This document shows positions 43,276-47,086 of a stretch of DNA of 64,000 nt, in pieces. How positions within the stretch are numbered: the first letter of the stretch is position 1; every line of letters begins with the position of its first letter. Below the pieces are notes generated by a model. The model searched no databases. It saw only the letters and a list, made by a program, of their open reading frames with translations, and had not been told where the DNA came from. Origin of the DNA: an uncultured Mucispirillum sp. Its GTDB lineage: Bacteria > Chrysiogenota > Deferribacteres > Deferribacterales > Mucispirillaceae. The position numbers and the translations under genes were made by a program. The stretch lies in NCBI GenBank assembly GCA_944324465.1, contig CALUWI010000005.1, positions 62,001 through 126,000 of the forward strand. Reading direction: 5' to 3'.

Positions 43276-43500
43276 TTATGCTGAAACTACTTCTTTAATT
43301 TCAGGAACTTCTTCTTTAATACGAGCTTCAATACCTTGTTTTAATGTCATAAGGCTGAAAGGACAGCTGCCGCATGCTCCTCTTAAAGCAACTTTTACAA
43401 CACCATCTTCAATACTGATAAGTTCTACATCACCACCATCAGCCTGTAAGCCTGGGCGAACTTTATCCAATACTTGTTGAACTTTTTCTTTTAATTCCAT
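43276..43500 (-). CDS. NifU C-terminal-like iron-sulfur carrier (Nfu)
   Basis: This 74-residue stand-alone Nfu domain has the conserved RPGLQADGGDVELI and the cluster-binding RGACGSCPFS (Cys43, Cys46). It carries or assembles a [4Fe-4S] cluster bridging a dimer and passes it to client proteins. It follows iscU by 22 nt in the Fe-S operon, and both key cysteines are intact. Confidence 0.93.
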   Translation of the reverse strand: MELKEKVQQVLDKVRPGLQADGGDVELISIEDGVVKVALRGACGSCPFSLMTLKQGIEARIKEEVPEIKEVVSA

Positions 43501-43522: not shown

Positions 43523-43960
43523 TTATTCAGCATCTTTTTTTAATTCAGCTTTCATGCTGTCAACAATTGATGCATCTTTACCTTGTTTTGTATAGTAATC
43601 TTTTAATGCAGCTTCTACTGCTTCTTCTGCCATAACTGAGCAGTGGATTTTTGCAGGTGGTAAGCCACCTAATGCATCAACAATAGCTTGGTTTGTAAGT
43701 TTTAATGCATCTTCTACTTTTGCTCCTTTTAACATTTCTGTAGTCATAGAGCTTGATGCAATAGCTGCTCCACAGCCAAAAGTTTTAAAAGTTGAATTTT
43801 CGATAACTCCATCGCTGTTCACTTTTAAATATAATTTCATTACATCACCGCAAGATGGGTTGCCTACTTCGCCAACACCATTTGCATCTTCAATTTCTCC
43901 CATATTTCTTGGGTTTGTGAAGTGATCCATAACTGTATCACTATATGGTCCTGCTGCCAT
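43523..43960 (-). CDS. iscU: Iron-sulfur cluster scaffold IscU/NifU N-terminal type
   Basis: The 145-residue scaffold has the three ligand cysteines: Cys37 in NPSCGD (with Asp39), Cys63 in TFGCGAAIASSS and Cys107 in KIHCSVMAEEA. This is the canonical IscU set. There is a short Lys/Asp-rich C-terminal tail. It builds [2Fe-2S]/[4Fe-4S] clusters using sulfur from a cysteine desulfurase. The partner NifS homologue is encoded 20 nt upstream but is altered at its PLP site. Confidence 0.95.
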   Translation of the reverse strand: MAAGPYSDTVMDHFTNPRNMGEIEDANGVGEVGNPSCGDVMKLYLKVNSDGVIENSTFKTFGCGAAIASSSMTTEMLKGAKVEDALKLTNQAIVDALGGLPPAKIHCSVMAEEAVEAALKDYYTKQGKDASIVDSMKAELKKDAE

Positions 43961-43980: not shown

Positions 43981-45180
43981 TTATTTTTTTATTTTTGACG
44001 GGTCAAATGCCGGGCTCATTGCACAAAGTTTATCAATAATCTCCGGACTTACTTTTAACACATGGTCAATATCTTCTTCTTCAATATATTTAGAAAGACT
44101 CATAGTTATTGAGCCTGCACAAATATCTGTAGGTACACCAACAGCTGTTAATACATGAGATGCCTGTAAATCATCTTCATCTTCTGCTAATATGTTAGAT
44201 GAACATGCTGAACCACTGGCACAATATACACCTTTTTGAGCATACCACATTAAAAGTGATTCACCTTCAATATACTCTACCCAAAAGCTCACATGATAAG
44301 GAAGTCTGTTTTCTATATCACCAGTAATATGCAGAAAATCATACTGTTCTGTTAAACCTTTAATTAATTTATTTCTTAATTTTGTAAGTTTTACAGTATA
44401 TTCTGCCATTTCATTTTTAGCAATTTCGCATGCTTTTCCAAGTCCAACAATAGCAGGTACATTTTCACTACCACTTCTTATGCCTCTTTCCTGAAAACCA
44501 CCATCAAAAAGTGGAGCAAGTTTTACATCAGGTGCAACATATAAAGCTGCAGCTCCTCTTATACCATAAAAATTTTGTGCTGCAATAGTTAATGTTGATG
44601 CATTTATTTTTTTCACATCAATATCAATAAAACCGCATGATGCAACAGCATCTACATGGAAATGAACACCTTTTTCTTTGCATATTTTACCAATAGCTTC
44701 AATATCCTGAATAACACCAATTTCTGGATTTGCATGAGCAATAGCAACAAGAGCTGTATCATCTTTTATTGCTTTTGCAATACTTTCTGGTGAAACCCTG
44801 CCATTTTTATCAACAGGCAGTTTTGTAAAAGTATAACCATAGTTAGTTAACTTTAATACTGGGTTTTGAATTGAATAGTGCTCTATTTCACTTATAACTA
44901 TATGTTTTTTATTACCACTTAAAGCCATAACACCTTTAACAGCCATATTGTTTGATTCTGTACCGTTAGAAGTGAATATGATACTTTCAGGTTTTTCAGC
45001 CCCGATTAAATCTGCAACTTGTTTTCTTGCTTGATTTAATGCACTGTAACTTTCCCTGCCAAGTGGATAAAAATGAGCTGCTGGGTTGCCATATTTTTCT
45101 GTTAAATAAGGCATAACTGCTTCAACAACTCGTGCATCTGGTTTTGTTCCAGCTATATTATCTAAATAAATTGGATTCAT
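43981..45180 (-). CDS. NifS/IscS cysteine desulfurase homologue lacking the PLP lysine
   Basis: The 399-residue fold-type I aminotransferase aligns with IscS over its length: FTSNGTESNNMAVKG, HANPEIGVIQDIEAIG, FHVDAVAS and ERGIRSGSENVPAIVG. The sulfur-carrying cysteine loop ASGSACSS (Cys326) is intact. However, the segment that in IscS is S-G-H-K-I-Y-G-P-K-G reads A-A-Q202-N203-F-Y-G-I-R-G, so the Schiff-base Lys and its His are gone (codons CAA AAT at 44572-44577). EHK is EHY, and the Arg of SIRFSLG is Thr in SITMSLS. It sits in operon with iscU and nfu. Desulfurase activity by the known mechanism is doubtful; role unknown. Confidence 0.85.
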   Translation of the reverse strand: MNPIYLDNIAGTKPDARVVEAVMPYLTEKYGNPAAHFYPLGRESYSALNQARKQVADLIGAEKPESIIFTSNGTESNNMAVKGVMALSGNKKHIVISEIEHYSIQNPVLKLTNYGYTFTKLPVDKNGRVSPESIAKAIKDDTALVAIAHANPEIGVIQDIEAIGKICKEKGVHFHVDAVASCGFIDIDVKKINASTLTIAAQNFYGIRGAAALYVAPDVKLAPLFDGGFQERGIRSGSENVPAIVGLGKACEIAKNEMAEYTVKLTKLRNKLIKGLTEQYDFLHITGDIENRLPYHVSFWVEYIEGESLLMWYAQKGVYCASGSACSSNILAEDEDDLQASHVLTAVGVPTDICAGSITMSLSKYIEEEDIDHVLKVSPEIIDKLCAMSPAFDPSKIKK

Positions 45181-45980
45181 TAAATTACCTCTTTCATTTG
45201 TTTAATAATATCTTCTATTAAAACTCGAACATAATCTCCAACAAAAGTAAGACCATTTCTTCTTGGAATTACAGTAATATCACTGCGTTCAGAAACATCT
45301 GATGCAGTAAAAAAACTTTCTGTTGGAAAATATCCTTCGTCATCTTTTAACCCAAACATATCTTTTGCAAAAACATCCATTTCAAATACAGTAGATAATG
45401 GAGAAATTCTAATAGATATATCGCCACCTGAAGCAGCAAAATCATCAACAGTTTTACCTACTGGAAGACCTGCTGTAACAGGATTATAATGCTTATTAAA
45501 AGCTATTCTGTTATGAAAAACTAAACTTTCAGCTTCATCAAAAGTAAAAATACTTCTTGTCTGCTGCATTAAATCTTCAACACCCTGCCTGCCGTAAATA
45601 CATACAGGTAAAGACAATACAACAGAAACATCAGCTACAGGCACTGCAATATTTCTTAAAATTTTTCTAACAGGCTCATATACTTTAAATACTTCTGCAT
45701 CTGGAGAAAATTCATAACCAGTAATATCAATAATAGTGCCGTCAAAATTTTTAATAATTTTTTCATCATGCATTGGTTTTGCAAGCATAATTAAAAGTTC
45801 TGCATCTTTTAAAAGTGATAAATCTGTTTCTACATACCCTTCTGCACTATCTTCTAATGATTCTGCAAATTCTTTATCTCCAAATATAGTATATTCTAAA
45901 AGTGGAAATTCTTCTTCTATTTTAGATAGAAAATCCAGTAATAATAAATAATCATTAATAAAAATCGCTGTTTTTAACAT
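45180..45980 (-). CDS. Aspartate-semialdehyde dehydrogenase/Usg-like protein without catalytic residues
   Basis: The 266-residue C-terminal half matches ASADH/Usg: LPVCIYGRQGVEDLMQQT, then NRIAFNKHYNP, and late SDITVIPRRNGLTFVGDYVR followed by a long helix. The N-terminal Rossmann GxxGxxG loop is not recognisable and the catalytic Asn-Cys is missing; the only Cys is in LPVCIYG. The protein is shorter than ASADH (~340). It overlaps the NifS homologue start by 1 nt, so the pair is coupled. Function unknown; a structural or regulatory partner of the Fe-S set is possible. Confidence 0.65.
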   Translation of the reverse strand: MLKTAIFINDYLLLLDFLSKIEEEFPLLEYTIFGDKEFAESLEDSAEGYVETDLSLLKDAELLIMLAKPMHDEKIIKNFDGTIIDITGYEFSPDAEVFKVYEPVRKILRNIAVPVADVSVVLSLPVCIYGRQGVEDLMQQTRSIFTFDEAESLVFHNRIAFNKHYNPVTAGLPVGKTVDDFAASGGDISIRISPLSTVFEMDVFAKDMFGLKDDEGYFPTESFFTASDVSERSDITVIPRRNGLTFVGDYVRVLIEDIIKQMKEVI

Positions 45981-45998
45981 TATATATAAACCTTTAAC

Positions 45999-46943
45999 TT
46001 ATCTTCTAATTAATTCTAGTTTGCCGTCTTGTGCTTCATAATTTAATATACGAACAACATTTCTACTGCCAAAGTTAGAATATTCCTGTCCATTATATTC
46101 CATTGAGACTGCAACAGCATTACCAATTTCTATTCTAAATGTTTTATCAAATTCTATTTCTATTTCTGTGCCCCGTCTTGCATTAACTTCATTTTCTTCA
46201 CCTTTATCTGTGCTGTATTTAAACCAGCAGTTTTCAGAGAATTTTACTTTTACTTTTTCTGGTGATAAAACAACAGGTGTTGGAATAGTTTGTGCAAATA
46301 ATGGGTCAATATATGCTGGCTCTGTAGTATTATCATAAGCATTTGTTGTCATATTATCTGTATTATTATCAGCATAAATTGATGTGCCGTAATAATTAAA
46401 ATATGAATTATTATCGCTTGTATTATCACCTGCAAAAGTAACAGCAGGTTCTGGCTCTACAACTGTAGCAGGCACTGGAGTATCTACTGCAGTATTGCTG
46501 CTGCCGATAGTAATTGTATTATTTAGCATACTGCTGGAATACACATAATAGCCACCATAGCCAATAAGCAGCAGAAATATAATAAGCAGTATTAATGTAA
46601 CTGGTTTTTTACTGCTTTTTTTCTCATTTTCTAAAAAACTTGTTTCGGTAGTAGATGGAGTATATTCTTCCTGAGTAATATCTTTTGGCTGTGCTGGTGC
46701 TCCTTCTTTAGGACATTCTGCAGAAAAAAGCGGCCAAACAACATTTTCATAATCTAAATTTAAAAACTCTGCATATTTTTTTACAAATCCATAAGCATGT
46801 AAATATGATGGTAAATCTTTAAATCTTCCTTCTTCTATTATTTTAATAAAATTTTCTCTGATTCTTGTATCATCAACTACATCTTGTATTGATTTTTTCT
46901 GTTCTTCCCTAGTTGATTTTAAAAGATTTCCTAATTCACTCAT
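45999..46943 (-). CDS. rodZ: RodZ-like cytoskeletal membrane protein
   Basis: Start ATG 46943 follows GGAG by 7 nt, giving 314 residues; longer readings from 47042 lack a ribosome site. The N-terminal HTH (MSELGNLLKSTREEQKKSIQ, residues 1-75), one membrane helix near 113-133 (VTLILLIIFLLLIGYGGYYV), an Asn/Thr-rich linker and a periplasmic DUF4115 domain (KFSENCWFKYS..., about 230-314) match RodZ. It links MreB to the wall elongation machinery. The linker is of low complexity. Confidence 0.85.
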   Translation of the reverse strand: MSELGNLLKSTREEQKKSIQDVVDDTRIRENFIKIIEEGRFKDLPSYLHAYGFVKKYAEFLNLDYENVVWPLFSAECPKEGAPAQPKDITQEEYTPSTTETSFLENEKKSSKKPVTLILLIIFLLLIGYGGYYVYSSSMLNNTITIGSSNTAVDTPVPATVVEPEPAVTFAGDNTSDNNSYFNYYGTSIYADNNTDNMTTNAYDNTTEPAYIDPLFAQTIPTPVVLSPEKVKVKFSENCWFKYSTDKGEENEVNARRGTEIEIEFDKTFRIEIGNAVAVSMEYNGQEYSNFGSRNVVRILNYEAQDGKLELIRR

Positions 46944-47086
46944 TATGCTCTCCATAACTACTTCGTACCATTTCACAGAGTAGTCTACTATTTTTCTATA
47001 TTTTTTCAACATATTTTTTTCATTACATTGAAAAAAATTCATATTTCATACAAAATATTATATATATAACTATGTTTATCAATAAT

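Follow-up and report, generated by a model that had tools for sequence, protein, structure and literature searches.

In the textbook scheme of iron-sulfur cluster assembly by the ISC system, IscS both frees sulfur and docks the scaffold IscU. The closest described departure from this scheme is IscS2 of Archaeoglobus fulgidus (PDB 4eb5, 4eb7 and 4hvk; D199K variant 4r5f), which possesses the IscS fold and an IscU partner, has Asp, Ala and Leu at the positions of the PLP-binding Lys and the pocket Gln and Arg, and is reported to lack desulfurase activity (PMC7585200). Its Cys321 ligates a [2Fe-2S] cluster together with three cysteines of IscU (PMC7585200, PMC9769115), and the structure of the IscS-IscU complex has been drawn with PLP (PMC9769115). 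IscS1 of Methanosarcina acetivorans, which is encoded in an iscSU cluster, is similarly reported to be devoid of the catalytic Lys (PMC7585200). A further set of PDB entries (9wep, 9wer, 9wew, 9wf8, 9wfb, 9wfe and 9wfy) comprises chains that differ, step by step, at the sites of the Lys, Gln, Arg and Asn and at neighboring sites; judging from these chains, they look like a Lys-less IscS from Aquificaceae along with variants in which canonical residues have been restored. The most native-like entry of this series displays His-Leu in place of His-Lys, and Val, Pro and Arg in place of the Arg, Gln and Asn, respectively. A literature search recovered no paper on these entries, nor any on Lys-less IscS proteins in Deferribacterota, Mucispirillum or Aquificota, though a prior mention in Garcia et al. 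2022 (MIS/SMS) is possible.

A Lys-less IscS homolog and its gene neighborhood

The window, i.e. the whole 64,000-nucleotide stretch analyzed here, comes from an uncultured Mucispirillum species and encodes such a protein amidst a minus-strand gene array with the order rodZ, a Usg-1/ASADH-like gene, iscS, iscU and nfu:

45999..47042 (-), RodZ-like protein (HTH_25 and RodZ_C, from domain matches)
45180..45980 (-), Usg-1/ASADH-like protein, 266 aa (profile match to the USG-1 homologue 2hjs, E 7e-5)
43981..45180 (-), Lys-less IscS/NifS homolog, 399 aa (reading frame, profile matches and AlphaFold model)
44572..44577 (-), CAA AAT codons for Gln202-Asn203 at the PLP-lysine site, read from the DNA
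44167-44196 (-), acidic insert NILAEDEDDL, residues 329-338, after the loop Cys326
43523..43960 (-), iscU, NifU_N/IscU scaffold, 145 aa, with three Cys, the Asp and LPPxK (TIGR03419 above cut-off)
43276..43500 (-), nfu, NifU C-terminal-domain carrier, 74 aa, with CxxC (PF01106, 8.6e-30)

Retranslation of the window DNA bore out the initial annotation, which had described an intact frame with Gln-Asn replacing the PLP-binding His-Lys: the frame at 43981-45180 is unbroken over 399 codons and, with CAA AAT at 44577-44572 on the complement, reads A-A-Q202-N203-F-Y-G-I-R-G where IscS/NifS proteins read S-x-H-K-x-x-G-P-K-G. The other altered motifs that it had listed are equally present, namely EHY at residues 100-102, VDAVAS with Ala180 in the Gln position of the VDAxQS motif, and SITMSLS at residues 357-363, from which the Arg is gone; so is the mobile-loop Cys326 in the motif SGSACSS, which is also invariant in relatives. 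The protein belongs to the fold type I enzymes, as indicated by its match to the aminotransferase class V profile (PF00266, E 2.8e-67), and scores 419.4 bits against the NifS profile TIGR03402, below the NCBIfam equivalog cut-off of 530.75 bits. Its AlphaFold model (mean pLDDT 90.7) superposes in PDB fold matching on human NFS1 and on IscS from A. fulgidus and E. coli, with TM-scores to IscS/NFS1 of about 0.90-0.93. Residues 325-338, which span the Cys loop and the acidic insert, are disordered in the model. An insert of the NILAEDEDDL type is found in all members of the class that were read and is absent from the other IscS proteins read; speculatively, it could assist in iron delivery.

The window IscU retains its three cysteines and Asp (CGD, FGC and HCS) and Nfu retains GACGSCP, in agreement with the initial claim that the scaffold cysteines are intact. 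The 266-residue protein is encoded upstream of iscS by a gene whose stop codon shares one base with the start of iscS. It was considered as a potential sulfurtransferase and rejected, as the profile search gave a Usg-1/ASADH-like match only; it could represent another enzyme of the operon that has degenerated. The RodZ-like upstream neighbor probably lies outside the mechanism.

Pocket residues lost and kept

The Lys-less proteins were compared with 43 Lys-bearing IscS sequences, with numbering and residue roles taken from the E. coli enzyme (PMC9978102). Near-complete shifts in this comparison include Asp79 to Asn, the Ala beside His104 to Ser, Asn155 to Pro, Ser or Gly, Gln183 to Ala, the His-Lys pair to various residues and Arg354 to Thr, Val or Leu, along with a few more columns. 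In the window protein, Asn203 occupies the Lys206 site, while Ala180, Thr359, Pro152 and Asn77 occupy those of Gln183, Arg354, Asn155 and Asp79, and His205 is likewise lost relative to canonical IscS. In contrast, His101 and Asp177, the equivalents of His104 and Asp180, and Cys326, the invariant equivalent of the loop Cys328, are kept; these three are retained in every complete Lys-less protein that was read and are shared, as is the fold, with canonical IscS from E. coli and from the host genome itself. The loss from the pocket is concerted, with the Lys, the PLP-site Gln, Asp79 and the substrate-binding Arg and Asn disappearing together.

In E. coli IscS, mutants at Gln183 or Lys206 have little or no activity left, and the carboxylate of the substrate is bound by Arg354 (PMC9978102). 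As the residues established by mutagenesis are lost together with Arg354, the window protein is not expected to act as a cysteine desulfurase, and ordinary desulfurase chemistry is, on the strength of its sequence, very probably beyond its capability. Trace activity is possible, given that the E. coli K206A mutant is reported to keep weak residual activity. A slow or unusual cysteine desulfurase in which another base substitutes for the Lys could draw on the very slow turnover reported for that mutant (PMC9978102); however, it appears highly improbable, for the Lys has gone along with Gln183, Arg354, Asn155 and Asp79, the A. fulgidus protein, in which the pattern is much alike, has been reported inactive, and the host genome also keeps a canonical IscS.

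The residue pattern of A. fulgidus IscS is a close parallel. The two proteins share the loss of the Lys together with the Gln and Arg, an Asn at the Asp79 site, a Ser at the 103 site, the retention of His104, Asp180 and the loop Cys, and a genomic association with an IscU bearing three Cys and the Asp. They differ in that the archaeal protein has Asp rather than Asn at the Lys site, shows about 40% identity and has no acidic insert, so that the loop of the window protein may act differently. The M. acetivorans IscS1 is likened to the window protein by description only: it shares the loss of the Lys and the iscSU context, and differs in being archaeal and in having other IscSU pairs alongside. 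The Aquificaceae protein differs in keeping the His of the His-Lys pair, where the window protein has Gln, and in being encoded without an adjoining iscU in the loci read. Thus, a Lys-less IscS has precedent in the A. fulgidus kind, of which the window protein is a variant and not a new kind.

The surviving residues indicate that part of the PLP pocket persists, and the kept His104 and Asp180 hint that it still holds a useful PLP or some other ligand. The initial proposal of a "non-PLP" protein is accordingly not upheld, in view of these two residues, by which the PLP ring is held, and of the PLP drawn in the A. fulgidus complex. An alternative explanation would have the pocket bind PLP or pyridoxamine phosphate non-covalently, or another ligand, and either catalyze a different reaction or serve as a sensor that gates assembly. 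The presence of His104 and Asp180 in every Lys-less protein read and the PLP in the A. fulgidus structure would fit such a role, and the recurrence of Asp79 to Asn, Ala to Ser at 103 and Gln to Ala in both bacterial and archaeal proteins, with His104 and Asp180 kept, resembles remodeling rather than decay. Yet the Deferribacterota proteins have in part lost the Ser and His of the phosphate site, and the substitute for the Lys differs widely among groups (N, Q, D, L, T, S, P or R), unlike what might be expected of a new catalytic residue. Hence, this explanation is rather unlikely, though less so than a slow desulfurase. For a regulator, another option raised at the outset, no evidence was found.

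Conservation in the class and the source of sulfur

The class was sampled with 48 genomes, 46 from the order and two from another order. A relative with at least 56% identity is present in 44 of these 48, and the wider scan described below gave relatives labelled uncultured Mucispirillum sp. (94% identity) and Deferribacteraceae (67%). The order of rodZ, the Usg-1/ASADH-like gene, iscS, iscU and nfu is conserved class-wide in the genomes compared. The 266-residue protein is fast-evolving and is recognized at its position in most, though not all, class genomes fetched. Asn replaces the Lys in all 34 class genomes, spanning two orders and excluding the window's own, in which the gene was read; the dyad is QN throughout the window's order and TN in the other order. 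Asn203, Cys326, His101 and Asp177 are invariant in a 16-member alignment, the Asn203 codon is AAT or AAC within the genus, and dN/dS relative to the window gene is 0.05-0.09 within the genus. The gene is under purifying selection, and the low dN/dS, the invariance of Asn203, Cys326 and their neighbors and the presence in 44 of 48 genomes show that it is needed by the cell. These data also dispose of a pseudogene or a sequencing or assembly error concealing a His-Lys pair: nothing apart from the odd residues speaks for it, and the identical change in 34 other genomes, the intact frames and the dN/dS of 0.05-0.09 leave it with a negligible probability.

The host genome (2.4 Mb, 97.5% complete) has one copy of canonical IscU, which lies beside the Lys-less iscS, and a search for SufB found it absent. 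Thus a SUF system was rejected as a backup, as was a second IscU, the only other NifU_N match being a weak one to a 239-residue protein that is not a canonical IscU. Across the class, 45 of 48 genomes have a single canonical IscU and 2 of 48 have SufB. As a separate observation, the NifU-like 239-residue protein adjoins a GGGtGRT-type 332-residue gene in the host genome (locus L040, 98-1096 and 1114-1833, minus strand). A second, normal NifS, which the initial annotation had suggested looking for, is indeed found elsewhere in the host genome (locus L001, G000:C1:150686-151837). It is of the HK type (SGHKIY) with all residues kept, and sits in a separate cysE-iscR-iscS cluster without an iscU of its own. 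An 85-residue protein is encoded next to this solo iscS (L001, 1176-1433, minus strand) and occurs near iscS in many relatives (L064-L076).

Of the functions suggested initially, a non-enzymatic partner of IscU that receives sulfur from elsewhere fits best, though A. fulgidus IscS and M. acetivorans IscS1 mean that it is not unprecedented. Specifically, the window protein would be a catalytically dead cysteine desulfurase paralog that the cell retains as an obligate partner for its sole IscU. It would probably form an IscS-type dimer with one IscU docked at each end, from which the disordered Cys326 loop could enter the IscU assembly site; there the Cys326 thiolate and the three IscU cysteines would complete and briefly hold the nascent [2Fe-2S] cluster, as in the A. 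fulgidus crystal structure. Sulfur would be supplied in trans, by the solo canonical IscS of the cysE-iscR-iscS operon or as sulfide, rather than by the window protein acting on cysteine. With regard to sulfide, E. coli without IscS can build IscU clusters from H2S under anaerobic conditions (PMC13015791), and the SMS system uses it as well (PMC12192291). We infer each of the four elements of this scheme, i.e. the catalytic inactivity, complex formation with IscU, the part of Cys326 as a ligand and the source of the sulfur, and their combination appears somewhat more probable than its opposite.

The main rival is a persulfide relay, wherein the solo IscS or another sulfurtransferase would load a persulfide on Cys326 for transfer to IscU, making the Lys-less protein a dedicated adaptor. 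Consistent with a relay, neither Cys326 nor its loop motif varies, the loop is both longer than usual and flexible in the model, and the normal IscS of the same genome has no IscU of its own. However, the A. fulgidus precedent favors donation of a ligand over transfer of sulfur and no thiol donor site was identified; such a relay is thus a minority possibility, unlikely but to be taken seriously.

A natural replacement in genus g11 bears on both these proposals. Two of its genomes (G024 and G035, 88% and 78% complete) carry iscR, an HK-type iscS and iscU (L073 and L194), with the G024 IscS grouping with Ruminococcus in the tree, and searches of both for the Lys-less IscS and the solo IscS gave no match to either. 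Chance is an unlikely cause of both absences in two incomplete genomes. Hence, it appears that g11 has swapped the split system typical of the class for a Clostridia-like canonical iscR/iscS-iscU cluster. The joint absence is as expected if the Lys-less and solo proteins together equal one canonical IscS, and fits their being two halves of one function; it also counts in favor of the relay. Further exceptions are G037, where the native IscU stands without an adjoining Lys-less IscS at a contig end in a genome that is 76% complete, and G014, a fragmented assembly, which has neither.

Lys-less IscS proteins beyond the class

A wider scan, using one genome per species followed by reading of the loci (with phylum names from record titles, and many of the genomes being MAGs), recovered Lys-less IscS genes in at least eight more phyla, mostly adjoining iscU. 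Bacterial representatives occur in Chloroflexota (mainly Dehalococcoidia), Nitrospirota, Acidobacteriota, Planctomycetota, Bacillota, Aquificota, Thermodesulfobacteriota/Myxococcota and Actinomycetota, and archaeal ones in Bathyarchaeota, Methanoperedenaceae and Hydrothermarchaeota. Many of these genomes have a Lys-bearing IscS/NifS alongside. However, searches of the Aquificaceae MAGs G072 and G074 gave no NifS-type match other than the Lys-less gene and no SufB, so that in these two a relay starting from a canonical IscS seems out of the question; the dehalococcoidian G061 too shows a single NifS-type match. As a side observation, at a locus from a Thermoplasmata archaeon (L139), IscU contains an intein-like insert immediately before the first cluster-ligand Cys (NPV-CVLPETN...LHN-CGD).

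Phylogenetic trees usually set A. fulgidus IscS apart from the bacterial Lys-less proteins, including the careful tree; the 9wep-type chains were left out of the careful trees because they are apparently engineered. In the analysis that masked five active-site columns, 27 bacterial Lys-less proteins group together as a clade (support 100/99) apart from the archaeal ones; when the 16 discriminating columns are masked this clade breaks up and three to four changes are needed. Consequently, a single bacterial clade is not claimed. For the Lys-less proteins as a whole, the AU test does not reject one origin (p 0.068).

In general terms, desulfurase-dead IscS proteins might constitute widespread co-scaffolds of IscU in anaerobic bacteria and archaea that arose more than once through the same pocket changes, and which in Deferribacterota partner the sole scaffold, with the role of IscS split between the solo protein as the enzyme and the Lys-less protein as a structural partner; we regard this as a close call that falls just short of even. 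What appears new with respect to the A. fulgidus precedent is the breadth of the phenomenon, the role at a sole scaffold and the natural swap. For many Lys-less genes, the label "cysteine desulfurase" given by automatic annotation is probably mistaken, and those from bacteria offer bacterial systems for the study of the A. fulgidus-type complex. A whole bacterial class, including a genus of mouse-gut commensals, seems to separate the release of sulfur from the docking of IscU, its scaffold being tied to an IscS that should be incapable of forming persulfide from cysteine. This makes testable the old question of whether what IscU essentially needs from IscS is the delivery of sulfur or structural support while the cluster forms.
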